DNA of 64,000 nt from Cellulomonas edaphi. GTDB lineage: Bacteria; Actinomycetota; Actinomycetes; Actinomycetales; Cellulomonadaceae. The position numbers and the translations under genes are program-made. Under the pieces are notes generated by a model. It saw only the letters and a list, made by a program, of their open reading frames with translations. It did no database searches and was not told where the DNA came from. This document shows, in pieces, positions 37,281-50,352 of the stretch. The stretch's first letter is position 1. Every line of letters begins with the position of its first letter. The stretch lies in contig NZ_JAUCGR010000002.1 of the NCBI RefSeq assembly GCF_030362815.1, forward strand, positions 1,054,001-1,118,000. Direction: 5' to 3'.

Positions 37281-37803
37281 GCAGCCACCAGCCGACCGGC
37301 GCGCAGCCAGCCCGGCGCGCAGCGAGCGGACTGGCGCGCAGCCAGCGGACCGGCGCGCAGCCAGCCCTACGCCGACCGCGGGTCATACGGCACGAGCGCT
37401 AGCCGCGCGCCACACGCGGTCGGGCCGCACGACGCGCGGTCGGCGCTGCCGCGCAGCCAGCCCCGGCGCGCAGCCAGCCGACCGGCGCGCAGCCAGCCGA
37501 CCGGCGCGCAGCCAGCCCCTGGCGCGCGGCCAGCCCTGCGCCGACCGAGGGCCATACGGCGCGAGCGCTAGCCGCGCGCCACGCGCGGTCGGACCGCAGG
37601 ACGCGCGGTCGGCATTGGCGCGCAGCCAGCCCCGGCGCGCAGCCAGCCGACCGGCGCGCAGCCAGCCCCGGCGCGCGGCCAGCCGACCGGCGCGCAGCCA
37701 GCCCCTGGCGCGCGGCCAGCCCTGCGCCGACCGCGGGTCATGCGGCGCGAGCGCTAGCCGCGCGCCACGCGCGGTCGGGCCGCAGGACGCGCGGTCGGCG
37801 CGA
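37281..37803. repeat. nested tandem-repeat block, three units of about 170-186 bp
   Basis: About fifteen copies of a 17-19-bp unit based on GGCGCGCAGCCAGC are arranged in three clusters. Each cluster is followed by a longer segment of about 78 bp that starts CGCCGACCG at 37370, 37539 and 37725. The spacings are 169 and 186 bp, so the last unit has gained one small repeat. The 78-bp segment contains AGCGCTAGC and pairs of CCGACCG/CGGTCGG that could fold into large hairpins. All six reading frames stay largely open, an effect of composition. No gene is convincing here. Confidence 0.85.
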
Positions 37804-45497: not shown

Positions 45498-46310
45498 TCA
45501 GAGGTCGTACTCGACCACCAGCGGCGCGTGGTCCGAGAATCGCTCGGCATACGTCGCCGCACGGTCCACGGTGGCGCTCACCGCGGCGTCGGCGAGCTCC
45601 GGCGTCGCGAGCTGGTAGTCGATGCGCCAGCCCGAGTCGTTGTCGTAGGCGGCGCCGCGCCACGACCACCACGTGAACGGGCCGGGGCCGTCACCGCCCA
45701 GCTCACGACCCATGTCCCGCCAGCCCAGGTCGTCGAACCACCGGTCCAGGTAGGCCCGCTCCCGCGGCAGGAACCCCGCGGACTTGAGGTTGCCCTTCCA
45801 GTTCTTGATGTCGACCTCGCGGTGCGCGATGTTCAGGTCGCCCGCGACGACGGCGCAGCCGCCACCCTCGGCGATGTCCGCCAGCCGCGCGGTCACGTGA
45901 TCGAGGAAGGCGTACTTCTCGTCCATGGACGGCTGCCCCACGGTGCCGGAGTGGATGTAGGTCGAGACCACCGTGACCCGGCGCGCCGGGGCGCCCTCGT
46001 GCGGCGCGACCTCCAGGTCCGCCTCGACCCACCGGCCGGTGTCGCCCGTGACCCCGGTCCGCATCCCGATCCGCACGGCGCTCATGGGCAGGCGCGACGC
46101 GATCGCGACGCCCGCGCGGCCCTTGGTCTCGCTGGCCTCGTGTGCCAGGTGCCACCCGTCGGCAGCGAGGTGGTCGGCGAGGATCTCGTCGGACGCTCGC
46201 ACCTCCTGCAGCAGCAGCACGTCGGGCTTGCGCTGCTCGAGCCAGGTGTCCATCCCCCGGCGGAAGGCGGCACGGATGCCGTTGACGTTGACGGTGGCGA
46301 TCGTGAGCAC
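45498..46310 (-). CDS. xth: exodeoxyribonuclease III (AP endonuclease)
   Basis: This 270-residue protein of the exonuclease III family has TVNVNGIRAAF near the start, LLLQEVRASD with the metal-binding Glu, GDLNIAH with the Asp/Asn pair, and the C-terminal SDHAPLVVEYD with the catalytic His. It cleaves DNA at abasic sites and degrades 3' ends in base-excision repair. The GTG at 46310 gives the normal family start VLTIATVNVNG; two more GTG codons lie 2 and 6 codons upstream. The first codons lie within a 52-bp sequence that recurs at 49477-49528, so the gene borders an inserted segment. Confidence 0.92.
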   Translation of the reverse strand: MLTIATVNVNGIRAAFRRGMDTWLEQRKPDVLLLQEVRASDEILADHLAADGWHLAHEASETKGRAGVAIASRLPMSAVRIGMRTGVTGDTGRWVEADLEVAPHEGAPARRVTVVSTYIHSGTVGQPSMDEKYAFLDHVTARLADIAEGGGCAVVAGDLNIAHREVDIKNWKGNLKSAGFLPRERAYLDRWFDDLGWRDMGRELGGDGPGPFTWWSWRGAAYDNDSGWRIDYQLATPELADAAVSATVDRAATYAERFSDHAPLVVEYDL

Positions 46311-46339
46311 CTGCACATCCAACCCCACGCCGGTGACAC
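46288..46339. repeat. left copy of 52-bp direct repeat (insert boundary)
   Basis: This 52-bp sequence covers the start of xth and its upstream region. It recurs in the same orientation at 49477-49528 with only three mismatches (relative positions 8, 11 and 30). The last 22 bases are identical in both. Weaker similarity continues for about 30 bp beyond. Confidence 0.85.
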
Positions 46340-46379
46340 TGGTGCGCGCTCGGCCGCCCGGGCCGGAGGCGGTCAGCGG

Positions 46380-47393
46380 CTAATTGTCGGGCTCGATGCG
46401 AACCCGGCTCTCGACACCCTCATCGGCGGTCTGCGGGAGCGCCTCGGGGTCGAGCCCGTTCATGTCGATAGTGACCCGGGCTTGAGGGTGTGGTGTCTTC
46501 CCGACGTCGATGGAACCGAGGTAGCCCAGGGGCGAGGTGAGCGTGGCATTGGCGTCCATGAGCCAGAACTCGAGGCTGCCGACGTCGCCGACGTACCCCC
46601 CGAGGGTGACCCCGTCGCGGAGCATGCTGCTGGGGGCGCAGTCGTTCCAGCCCTCGGCGATGTGGGTGCAGATTGACGTGGTGTCGTCCAGCGCGTCGCC
46701 GTCCGTCGAGCTCAGGTGGAGTGTGGCCACGCGCAGGCTCTCCAAGAGCTCCTGGGGCGCGGTCTCGGGATTCAGGATCACCGGTTGATCCGTCGGGCTT
46801 CCCTCGGGCACATCCGGGTCGAGCAGCGCCTGCGCTCGCTGCGGGGTGCCGTGCACCACCTCGAGCATCTTGGCGCGCGCGCCCGTGCCGAACAGGGAGT
46901 GCACAGGGCGGTAGAACATCTGGTCGCCGCAGTCGCCTGGGAAGAAGAGGTCGTCCGCCGTGACGACAACGGCGGTCCCGACGTTCTCGAACTCGTACGC
47001 AACGAGCGGCTCGATGCCGAGCCAGACGTCCGCCTTGTTGCCCAACCCCCAACGGACTCCCTCGAGTGCGGACTCGCCGAGCAGCGCCGTGCGGTCTTTG
47101 CCGTCGGCGTCGGTGTAGGCGACCTCGAGGAGGGCCGACCCGGGGTGGTCGTCGGACCGCTCGGTGCCCCTGATCGCGACCACCTGACGCCACGGCGTAA
47201 GTCCCGCGAGATAGCTTCCCGCAGGTTCGATGTCGCCAAGTGACGTCGCACATCCCCCGTACTGCTTGCTCAGCACCGCGCCCTGGCCGGCGCCAGCCGC
47301 CTCGCTGGGGGCGAGCGTTGCGCACCCTGCGGCGACCTGCACGATGGCGGCGAGCGCCCCTGCCCCCACCGCAAGCCTCGAGATCCGATTCAC
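46380..47393 (-). CDS. predicted lipoprotein of unknown function
   Basis: This 337-residue protein starts with a lipoprotein signal (hydrophobic stretch LAVGAGALAAIVQ and lipobox VAAGC, lipidated Cys at residue 24). The mature part is a beta-rich globular domain with five further cysteines, mostly paired in sequence (YGGCATS, PGDCGDQ, SICTHI, NDCAPS). I recognise no family. The GTG at 47393 has GAGGAG ahead of it. The gene lies inside the 3.1-kb insert bounded by the 52-bp repeats, is less GC-rich than its neighbours and faces the same way as the secreted peptidase upstream. Surface attachment is well supported; its role is not. Confidence 0.75.
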   Translation of the reverse strand: MNRISRLAVGAGALAAIVQVAAGCATLAPSEAAGAGQGAVLSKQYGGCATSLGDIEPAGSYLAGLTPWRQVVAIRGTERSDDHPGSALLEVAYTDADGKDRTALLGESALEGVRWGLGNKADVWLGIEPLVAYEFENVGTAVVVTADDLFFPGDCGDQMFYRPVHSLFGTGARAKMLEVVHGTPQRAQALLDPDVPEGSPTDQPVILNPETAPQELLESLRVATLHLSSTDGDALDDTTSICTHIAEGWNDCAPSSMLRDGVTLGGYVGDVGSLEFWLMDANATLTSPLGYLGSIDVGKTPHPQARVTIDMNGLDPEALPQTADEGVESRVRIEPDN

Positions 47394-47600
47394 AGCAGCT
47401 CTCCTCGCGCGTCATCGAAGTAAACCGGATTGTCACCCTCAGTGTTGCCAAGCCGCGGACCTGCAGCTCCTGACCTTCCTGGCGGCTCCCGACCGGGATG
47501 GTCACTGCTGGCGTAACAAGGGCCGTCCAGGCCGTTCCCACGGTCGTCATACTCGTCTCAGCAGCAAGAAGCCAACCCGTCGCCGAGACATTATCGACGT

Positions 47601-48539
47601 TTAAATGCTGCAGGCCGAGGGATATTCGGGCTGGCATTCTTCACCTGATCCCGTGAACAGCGCTCTGCGATAGAGACCGGCCTGCGCGTGTGTGACCAGA
47701 CCGCCGCTTGGACCGCGCGCGTTCATCCTCGCCCGATACTGTCCATCGCCGGCAGTTCCAGTCCAGATCCTGATGGTTTGGTAGATGTACGAGTTATCTG
47801 CCGTTGACGTAGGGTCAAAACGCGCGCCACCCTCGCCGTGAGCGACGTACGCGTTCTGATACGAGATGGTGCCGAACGTGGAACCCCAGTAGCGGACCCC
47901 CTGCTCGAAGCCGTAATTGGCGTGCAACTGCCGAAAACCCGGGGACGAGTGCAGGTACTGCAGGTACGCATTTGCATCCTGATCGAGCAAGCTGTCGGTG
48001 CGGAAGTCAGCGCGTGAAACACAACTTGACATCGTGGCCGGATTATCTCCGTTCTTCGAGTCATTGCGACCGCCGTGGTACGCCCCGGTCAAGTGCATCA
48101 TCTCGTGACGGCCGGTTTGCCAGATCACCTTGGCAGACCGGTCCCCAATGTCGATATGGAGATAGGGCGAGAGCGAGCAACTCGCGCGGCCGATGGTGCT
48201 TCCTCCCAACTCGACGAGCCTGACCTTCACGTCGCTGACGCCCGGGTCCGCCACCTCAGTTAGCGCCAGGGGCTGCGTGCCGTCGAAGTCGCGCGCTCCT
48301 TCCAACGATGCCATCGCTGCTGGGAACGCCGTCTTCTCGCTAGCTGTCCAGTCCTCGTAGTCATTCGAGAAACCCCACGTGATGGTGTTGTCATCACACC
48401 CATCGCTCGAGCCCGCATTCGTGAACGCGAACGCCGGGGAAGCGGAACTGACCAAGAAAAACACGGTGGCAGCGAACGCGGCTACCAACTTCCTACGCGC
48501 ATTCCAATCGAGAGGAACGAGGCCAGGTGGGTTGTGCAT
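47601..48539 (-). CDS. secreted metzincin-like metallopeptidase
   Basis: This 312-residue protein has a clear signal peptide (ARRKLVAAFAATVFFLVSSA, cleavage after SPAFA). The zinc site HEMMHLTGAYH is a complete HExxHxxGxxH, and NPATMSSCV some 15 residues later is a candidate Met-turn, so it should be an active secreted metzincin. The last 110 residues are beta-rich (GFEQGVRYWGSTFGTISYQN and on), resembling a small carbohydrate-binding or jelly-roll module. The ATG at 48539 is preceded by GGAG. It lies in the insert next to the xth gene, with visibly lower GC than the flanks. Substrate unknown; I find no close named family. Confidence 0.8.
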   Translation of the reverse strand: MHNPPGLVPLDWNARRKLVAAFAATVFFLVSSASPAFAFTNAGSSDGCDDNTITWGFSNDYEDWTASEKTAFPAAMASLEGARDFDGTQPLALTEVADPGVSDVKVRLVELGGSTIGRASCSLSPYLHIDIGDRSAKVIWQTGRHEMMHLTGAYHGGRNDSKNGDNPATMSSCVSRADFRTDSLLDQDANAYLQYLHSSPGFRQLHANYGFEQGVRYWGSTFGTISYQNAYVAHGEGGARFDPTSTADNSYIYQTIRIWTGTAGDGQYRARMNARGPSGGLVTHAQAGLYRRALFTGSGEECQPEYPSACSI

Positions 48540-49044
48540 CAACACTCCATCCGGGACGGCGTTCGCGAACTGTGCCAGTTACCGTGGGACGCCGTCTATG
48601 GGAAAGGCATCGTGTCGCCCGAAGGGGGGTCTCGAATCGCGTCTATGCACTGGCTCGGGCCGTTAGTCGTCGAGGAGCCGATCCGGCCCGGCCCGTCGTG
48701 ACAGGCAGCCCGGCGCCACGCACCACGAAGCGCGCCCCACCTGCTAAGCGGGTGAGCACTCTGTGGTGTTGCCGCCTCAGGCCAGGGAGTGAGAGTTCGA
48801 TGACATGGTGGGGCCCTTCCCCACTTCCGCGGCGACGCGGTCGCGCGCCGTTCGAGCATCCAGTCTCGCTCCTCGTACTCCACCCCAAGCGCCTGAGCGG
48901 CTAGCCGACTTTGGATCTGGTCGACTTCGACACGTCACGCCGGAGGAGGTGGCCGAGATCTACCCGGGCGTCACGACTGAGGGCGCCGACAGTGCGCGTG
49001 CGTTTACCGAGCGGATCGCGGCGATCGGCGCAGCGTAACCCTGA
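48540..49044. other. non-coding stretch inside the insert
   Basis: This 505-bp stretch has no convincing gene. Short frames exist on both strands but none has a good ribosome-binding site together with sensible composition. A plus-strand segment at about 48930-49038 (reading VTPEEVAEIYPGVTTEGADS) looks protein-like and may be the front part of the broken frame that follows. Confidence 0.5.
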
Positions 49045-49443
49045 AAGTGCTTCGCCGACGGGAACCTGCCACCCTTCCTCGTCAACCCGCTCCGGCGCCT
49101 GCACCGCCAGCACCGGTTTCGGCCAGCAGCCGAGTGCGGCACTCGGGGCCTCGGAAACATCGAACTGATCGAATATGTTGCACGGTTCGACTTTGACTCG
49201 GTCGTCACCCTCGACTGGCAGCGGCTGGAGAACGCGGACGAATTCGCAGCTCTGAAGGGCGAGCGGCTGAATTGGCTCGGAATGCCGGCTATCAAGGCCA
49301 ATGGGAGACACCACCTAGAGCTGCAGACTGCTGTCGCGGTGTCCGCCGTCGGCCACGTCATCGACCAGTGGGGCCGGCGACGTTCCGTCTCACCCAGCTC
49401 GAGCTCGACGATGGGAAACGTGAGCAGTCGCACGGCGCCGTAG
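49045..49443 (+). pseudogene. truncated reading frame, probably a gene remnant
   Basis: An open frame of 133 codons runs from just after a TGA at 49042 to a TAG at 49441. Codon use is native-looking, with segments such as IELIEYVARFDFDSVVTLDW and GERLNWLGMPAIKANGRHH. It has no upstream start codon, and the preceding protein-like stretch is in another phase, ending in TAA at 49036. This fits a frameshifted or 5'-truncated gene. No family is recognised. It ends 33 bp before the right copy of the 52-bp repeat. Confidence 0.4.
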
Positions 49444-49476
49444 TCCGTGCTCTGGCGCGAGTGCGACTTGGGCACC

Positions 49477-49528
49477 TTGACGGGGGTGATCGTGAGCACC
49501 TGCAGATCCAACCCCACGCCGGTGACAC
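49477..49528. repeat. right copy of 52-bp direct repeat (insert boundary)
   Basis: This is the same sequence as 46288-46339 with three mismatches. On the minus strand it encodes a false start of exonuclease III (VLTITPV) that loses similarity after about eight codons. Confidence 0.85.
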
Positions 49529-49564: not shown

Positions 49565-49828
49565 TCAGTGGGTCCTGTCGAAGTCATCGACGCGCCGGCG
49601 AAGATCGCGAGTGAGCACGATCCACAGGCCGGCGACCACGAGAGCCATCCCGATCAGGACCCAGCCGACGACCGGATCGTCGCCCTCGCTCGGCCGCCGC
49701 ACGAGCACCGCACCCAGGACGACGAGCACCGCGACCCACGCGGCGACCGCCCAGCGGATGCCCACCGCGTGCTTCGCCACCCACCGCTGCGGGCGCGTGG
49801 GTGGCACGTCGGGCGAGTACCTGATCAT
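49565..49828 (-). CDS. small membrane protein, unknown
   Basis: This 87-residue protein has two transmembrane helices (about residues 25-43, WAVAAWVAVLVVLGAVLV, and 53-71, GWVLIGMALVVAGLWIVL), with a basic N-terminus and an acidic/basic tail ending DDFDRTH. It starts with an ATG overlapping the VOC gene stop (ATGA), so it is translated with that protein. No family is recognised. Before the insertion it was probably directly upstream of xth. Confidence 0.65.
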   Translation of the reverse strand: MIRYSPDVPPTRPQRWVAKHAVGIRWAVAAWVAVLVVLGAVLVRRPSEGDDPVVGWVLIGMALVVAGLWIVLTRDLRRRVDDFDRTH

Positions 49829-50316
49829 GTCGACTCCCCCCGGTACGCCGCCTCCAGCGCCGCGATGTCCAGCTTCACCTGCGTGAGCATCTCGGCGGTG
49901 GCGCGCGCGGCACCCTCCGGGTCGGCGTCGGGCGACAGGGTCCACTCGAGCAGCTGGCGCGGCACCACCTGCCACGAGAGGCCGAAGCGGTCGGTGAGCC
50001 AGCCGCACTGGACCTCCTGGCCGCCGCCCTCCAGCAGGGCCGACCAGTAGCGGTCCACCTCCTCCTGCGTGTCGCAGTCGACCACCATCGAGAACGCGGC
50101 GTTGAGCTTCAGCGACGGCCCGGCCGAGAGGGCCTCGACCGGCTGGCCGTCGAGCACGAAGTGCACGACGAACGGGTCGCCCTTGGTCACGCCGGGCATG
50201 TCGGCGGGCGCGTGCAGCACGTCGGTGATCGAGGAGTTCGGGAAGATCGAGACGTAGAACTGCGCGGCCTCGAGTGCGTTGTCGTCGAACCACAGGTGCG
50301 GGCGGACGATGCCCAT
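49825..50316 (-). CDS. VOC-superfamily protein (PhnB/3-demethylubiquinone methyltransferase-like)
   Basis: This 163-residue protein of the glyoxalase/VOC fold starts MGIVRPHLWFDDNALEAAQFY, the typical opening of PhnB-like proteins, and continues with FPNSSI and GWLTDRFGLSWQVVP. Such proteins are often labelled 3-demethylubiquinone-9 methyltransferase-like but lack a methyltransferase fold; their reactions are unknown. The ATG at 50316 is preceded by AGGAGG. It is coupled to a small membrane protein. Confidence 0.85.
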   Translation of the reverse strand: MGIVRPHLWFDDNALEAAQFYVSIFPNSSITDVLHAPADMPGVTKGDPFVVHFVLDGQPVEALSAGPSLKLNAAFSMVVDCDTQEEVDRYWSALLEGGGQEVQCGWLTDRFGLSWQVVPRQLLEWTLSPDADPEGAARATAEMLTQVKLDIAALEAAYRGEST

Positions 50317-50352
50317 GACGGTTCCTCCTGACGCGGACGGCGAGGACGCAGG

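Follow-up and report, generated by a model that had tools for sequence, protein, structure and literature searches.

In Cellulomonas edaphi, the start of xth, the gene for exodeoxyribonuclease III, carries an insert of about 3.1 kb whose edges coincide exactly with the two copies of a direct repeat, and the left of these copies completes xth. Overall, we believe that this insert may be the remnant of a gene-end-restoring insertion of the att type, a reading to which we give a probability of roughly 0.45. The gain of foreign DNA at the xth start, already proposed in a preliminary description of the window (the whole stretch of 64,000 nucleotides that was analysed), is itself supported by sequence comparison, because relatives have empty sites, because the insert is low in G+C, and because its cargo is rare in the host's order but paired in another class.

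The repeat, recovered by repeat finding in the window, is 55 bp long, with both copies in the same orientation and 51 of 55 positions identical, and all that xth requires for its start lies within it: the promoter, the start codon and about 12 codons. It is among the three best same-strand ungapped 55-mer matches at a spacing of 200-6000 bp in the whole window, the other two both falling within a tandem-repeat tract at 37.3-37.8 kb. Local alignment of the two copies scores 47.5, as compared with at most 18 for shuffles. The preliminary description had given this repeat as 52 bp with three mismatches (46288-46339 and 49477-49528); the repeat is real and proves slightly longer. Its account of the two copies agrees with the alignment: the intact xth draws on the left copy, and the right copy is a dead start that loses its similarity to xth early, after about 12 codons. 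RNA hairpins beside the repeats are no better than those of shuffled sequence. The tandem-repeat tract itself (window 37288-37799) consists of G+C-rich imperfect repeats with a higher-order unit of 186 bp.

Table 1. Features of the xth locus and its insert, in window coordinates
Feature	Position	Strand	Evidence and remarks
xth (exodeoxyribonuclease III), intact	45498..46310	-	TIGR00633 6.5e-53; start GTG 46310-46308 by alignment
Left (gene-proximal) repeat copy	46285..46339	-	Promoter, start codon and first codons used by xth
Promoter motif TGTCACCG-N8-TTGGAT-G	46316..46338	-	5 nt ahead of the xth start codon
Lipoprotein gene	46380..47393	-	Lipobox in sequence; BLASTP 3e-7 to the peptidase's neighbour in L141 (G427)
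Secreted, putatively metzincin-like zinc protease gene	47601..48545	-	HEMMHLTGAYH; weak profile matches; lowest G+C
DUF433-type antitoxin remnant (C-terminal part)	48805..49038	+	Pattern EIYPGVTTEGADSARAF; intact homologue pair in L081
PIN-like toxin remnant (PIN_10/DUF5615 type)	49045..49440	+	Homologues L081, L082; weak PIN_10 match 0.06
Right (displaced) repeat copy	49474..49528	-	Promoter, dead start, about 12 codons
Small membrane-protein gene	49568..49828	-	Overlaps the stop of the VOC-fold gene; absent from the locus in relatives
VOC-fold (3-dmu-9_3-mt) gene	49825..50328	-	PF06983 2.5e-41; synteny; conserved neighbour, far edge of the empty site

The surroundings of xth in related genomes show what the site looks like when nothing has been gained. 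The gene order xth, VOC-fold gene, folD, glyA is conserved, and in most of 82 Cellulomonas genomes 37-150 bp separate xth from the VOC-fold gene upstream of it and the repeat is present as a single copy. The preliminary description had reasoned that close relatives all carrying the same genes, with no empty site, would speak against an insertion; the three nearest relatives, Cellulomonas sp. PhB150 (G032), JH27-2 (G002) and C. rhizosphaerae (G345), are instead empty sites with one repeat copy each, and the 3.1-kb insert is exclusive to the window among the Cellulomonas xth loci compared. The small membrane-protein gene is also missing from the locus in relatives, so that the DNA they lack reaches almost as far as the VOC-fold gene. 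Extra DNA ahead of the xth promoter occurs in several other Cellulomonas too, there without any repeats (5 kb between the VOC-fold gene and xth in G006, for example), which counts against an att-type remnant. Cell-wall-hydrolase-like genes (M15-like, M23-like and amidase-like, by eye) were seen next to xth in several Cellulomonas, upstream of it at L120, L047, L124 and L140 and in the L052 insert.

The composition and gene content of the insert both point to an origin elsewhere. Its G+C is 0.652 against 0.735 for the window, confirming the lower value suggested earlier, and that of the peptidase gene, 0.602, is the lowest in the window, with a GC3 of 0.72 as compared with 0.95 for xth. The lipoprotein, secreted peptidase and broken frame first read between the repeats were seen again, as a lipobox, the motif HEMMHLTGAYH and a broken toxin frame. 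Neither the peptidase nor the lipoprotein belongs to any Pfam, NCBIfam, PHROG or PADLOC family. The peptidase nonetheless contains the HEXXHXXGXXH zinc motif, of which its homologue in G427, a genome of another actinobacterial class, retains HE..H..G..H. We regard it as probably metzincin-like, because a two-sequence profile built from these two proteins weakly matches snake-venom metalloproteinases (reprolysins) and stromelysins (matrixins) in the PDB and because homologues match Peptidase_M10. Structure models of the protease and the lipoprotein were discarded, with pLDDT values of 33-34 (33 for the protease).

Across 297 genomes of the host's order, nothing else matches the peptidase, and the lipoprotein finds a single distant match. 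Within the class to which G427 belongs, 12 of 198 genomes (about 6%) have the peptidase family, and at most of the loci inspected the peptidase gene is followed, on its own strand, by a lipoprotein-like one; in G427 itself the neighbour is homologous to the window lipoprotein. As the pair is conserved in that class and nearly missing from the host's order, the two genes are a conserved pair gained from far outside the order. Their function may be guessed to be that of a secreted protease with a membrane-anchored partner or inhibitor. Pairs of a protease and a lipoprotein or membrane-anchored protein, undescribed, also occur in L142, L143, L144, L147 and L149-L151. The remaining cargo, a DUF433/PIN-like toxin-antitoxin system, appears here only as a decayed remnant: the toxin frame lacks an in-frame start and is shifted near its end, and intact homologues of the antitoxin and toxin adjoin each other in L081. 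Toxin-antitoxin remnants are common cargo of mobile elements. No sigma-70 promoter above chance was found in the insert. The stranded right copy, as a former xth promoter, faces the insert with its protease and lipoprotein genes and so could read them, after a leader of about 0.95 kb.

The gene completed by the left copy is 92-93% identical to the homologues in G032 and G002; the mechanically predicted start of its reading frame is six codons too early, and the conserved GTG is the one given in Table 1. Upstream of xth in 63 loci lies the motif TGTCGGTG-N8-(T/C)(T/A)GGATG, and since it stands only 5 or 6 nt from the GTG (in 60 of the 63), the xth transcript is suggested to be leaderless. We take the layout of this motif to be that of the RecA-NDp/PafBC-type DNA-damage promoter of actinobacteria; the RecA-NDp-type promoter reportedly goes back to work by Gamulin et al. 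in 2004 (cited in PMC6789036), on which the PafBC assignment draws. Judging from the layout, the xth promoter is probably regulated by DNA damage. The resemblance extends to the TGTCGGTG-N8-hexamer arrangement ahead of xth in most Cellulomonas, but both window copies read TGTCACCG instead. This PafBC-like promoter is deeply conserved across Cellulomonas and Actinotalea, with the box altered in the present genome.

The alteration, TGTCAC for TGTCGG, replaces GG by AC at positions 5-6, where GG is nearly universal and AC occurs in none of the 62 other loci. Since both copies share this lineage-private variant, both would derive from this lineage, which is compatible alike with target duplication, gene conversion or an intraspecific element. 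A recombined foreign 5' half of xth was ruled out, since the nearest relatives match its first 90 nt as closely as they do the remainder.

A second Cellulomonas genome, G329 (L096), is an independent case of the same kind of event. There, an intact xth beginning GTGATCACGATCGCCACC has a canonical promoter, a GTG and seven codons stranded 993 bp upstream of it; the 5' end of that intact gene (GTGATCACG) differs from the stranded one, the sequence upstream of it is new, and between the two lies one ABC-transporter-like membrane gene on the opposite strand, named from sequence only. The near and stranded copies match at only about 17 of 21 nt, the promoter is not duplicated, and the points on xth at which similarity breaks off in G329 and in the window are about 10 nt apart. 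Sister species are also without the canonical promoter and have other genes there, some of them lysin-like, so this edge of xth has been rebuilt more than once. Besides the window and G329, no duplicated xth start was found in any other scanned Cellulomonas locus. Narrow passes of the duplication flag (L040, L117 and L126 in Cellulomonas and L066 outside the genus) are treated as chance: they score 20-23, and the two real cases 43-47. A match to the xth start in G010 (C16) is likewise chance, embedded in unrelated DNA, and the second xth in G357 is a separate, divergent fragment at a contig edge and not a relic.

At the same time, nothing that could have moved the insert has been located. The preliminary description saw no integrase; profile searches likewise find neither an integrase nor a transposase nor any further phage gene in it, and no recombinase plausibly its own elsewhere in the host genome, both of which tell against an att-type remnant. 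The genome has two strong tyrosine-recombinase matches, which look like a putative XerC/XerD pair, one further phage-type integrase about 300 kb from the insert on contig 2 (L154:1348-2619), and no serine recombinase. Because the insert has no integrase, the integrative element suggested earlier as the cause is unproven; of the features generally expected of such elements, an empty one-copy site in relatives is present and a recombinase gene is absent. Carriers were equally elusive: no phage, plasmid or viral contig has the repeat site or the insert, a further point against the att-type reading, the insert matches no plasmid, and a search for xth in viral contigs and phages gave no provirus with an actinobacterial xth edge. 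A promoter-motif match in the viral contig L083 was dismissed as chance, lying inside a phage tape-measure-like gene.

How, then, might the insert have arrived? Consider a Cellulomonas lineage in which a foreign segment of about 3.1 kb enters the start of xth by an insertion that restores the gene end, with the 55-bp repeats as its two hybrid attachment sites. The right edge, the far one, would then keep the original promoter, start codon and some 12 codons, cut off from the gene; the left edge, the near one, would provide an equivalent promoter and start, and xth would stay expressed. The remnant seen today would retain only cargo, a protease-lipoprotein operon and a broken toxin-antitoxin system, its recombinase having been lost or never having lain inside. 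We infer a site-specific recombinase as the agent, with the left copy arriving as part of the insert. The earlier proposal that the insertion restored the 5' end of the gene thus fits the anatomy, and G329 offers a like event; the mechanism is the part that has to be supplied by inference. Survival may bias what is observed, in that an insertion failing to restore promoter and start would remove xth and may be lost.

The closest known parallel is the dusA islands, which supply the gene with a new 5' end and displace the old one (Farrugia et al. 2015, PMC4482086). With the present insert they share their site, the 5' end of a housekeeping gene, as well as imperfect direct repeats (PMC4482086) and a rebuilt gene end whose original is displaced to the far edge, with a promoter before and after insertion. 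They differ in that the target here is xth and not dusA, that the repeat is 55 bp and spans promoter and start as compared with their 21-bp core, and that the insert is only 3.1 kb and has no integrase of the dusA-specific family. The insert therefore resembles a dusA island in its anatomy but cannot be assigned to that family. It also resembles remnant or cargo-only genomic islands with direct repeats, in its foreign composition, its toxin-antitoxin remnant, its repeats and the lack of a recombinase; the xth target and the promoter-restoring anatomy set it apart, and a limited literature search found no description of these and nothing relevant on xth or exodeoxyribonuclease III as an integration site.

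The att-type reading gathers the empty one-copy sites, the repeats at the edges, the foreign composition and cargo, the toxin-antitoxin remnant and the dusA-like anatomy into one event, and G329, with its nearby breakpoint and non-identical near copy, argues for it as well. What it does not anticipate is a lineage-private variant in both copies, unexpected of an element from outside. For that observation the simplest explanation is duplication at insertion, a serious rival that is possible, with the odds leaning against it. Here a staggered double-strand break over the xth promoter and start would be filled in during capture of a foreign fragment, by end joining or template switching, giving two host 55-bp copies. 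The duplicated piece would be exactly promoter and start because only insertions keeping both working survived selection; no integrase would be needed, and the VOC-xth junction does take other insertions without repeats. Against such a break, a 55-nt stagger is long, the near copy in G329 is no copy of the stranded one, and two species would have been broken within about 10 nt of each other.

The shared variant would be natural, too, if a circle bearing the 5' end of xth from this species or a very near one had entered by a RecA-type single crossover without a site-specific enzyme, and the closeness of the first 90 nt of xth to the nearest relatives, equal to that of the remaining gene, agrees with this. 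We consider it unlikely all the same, since the circle would have needed to recombine through only about 55 bp of homology, which is near the lower limit for RecA, and no plasmid matches. Ordinary variation of the neighbourhood, with an ancestral insert lost elsewhere and a repeat left over from an old duplication of xth, draws on the variability of the xth upstream region in Cellulomonas, but it is very improbable in view of a cargo nearly absent from the order, an empty site in all near relatives, and the foreign composition.

Regardless of the route, the insert brings to light a conserved protease-lipoprotein gene pair without a family model. If the att-type reading is true, a DNA-repair gene with a probable DNA-damage promoter joins the few protein-coding genes whose ends are rebuilt by inserts, and the question is raised of how small integrase-less elements reach a fixed site. 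If the insert was a one-off capture, it is still a horizontal gain of the ordinary sort, instructive for the survival constraint that it shows.

Other genera suggest that xth is a recurrent insertion target. Three relatives in the order (G040, G058 and G050) have an intact xth and displaced 3' fragments (residues ~227-276) 5-7 kb off (L067:4927-10804, L068:619-7287 and L069:2998-11728). The intact 3' ends of G040 and G058 use A+T-richer synonymous codons, a foreign codon choice (L067, L068), and the displaced fragments host-like ones, as if the new 3' end had been supplied by an insert. The ends are separated by a DpnII/MboI-type nuclease together with an AlbA protein, by an AbiU/AIPR protein, or by a type ISP restriction enzyme, and no integrase was seen among the genes inspected there, which are part of the frames. 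It is doubtful, if conceivable, that xth is an undescribed recurrent actinobacterial landing site for small integrase-less elements. These would use its 5' end in Cellulomonas (the window and G329) and, in other Micrococcales, its 3' end, with the last ~50 codons insert-supplied in foreign codon usage and the displaced end 5-7 kb off behind restriction, AbiU/AIPR or type ISP genes. Two of these loci contain related-looking genes (L067:9268-9954 and L068:968-1519; EEAWSRFW...EGRLPEW...LWITKLI) with no Pfam match, a candidate gene of a shared element.
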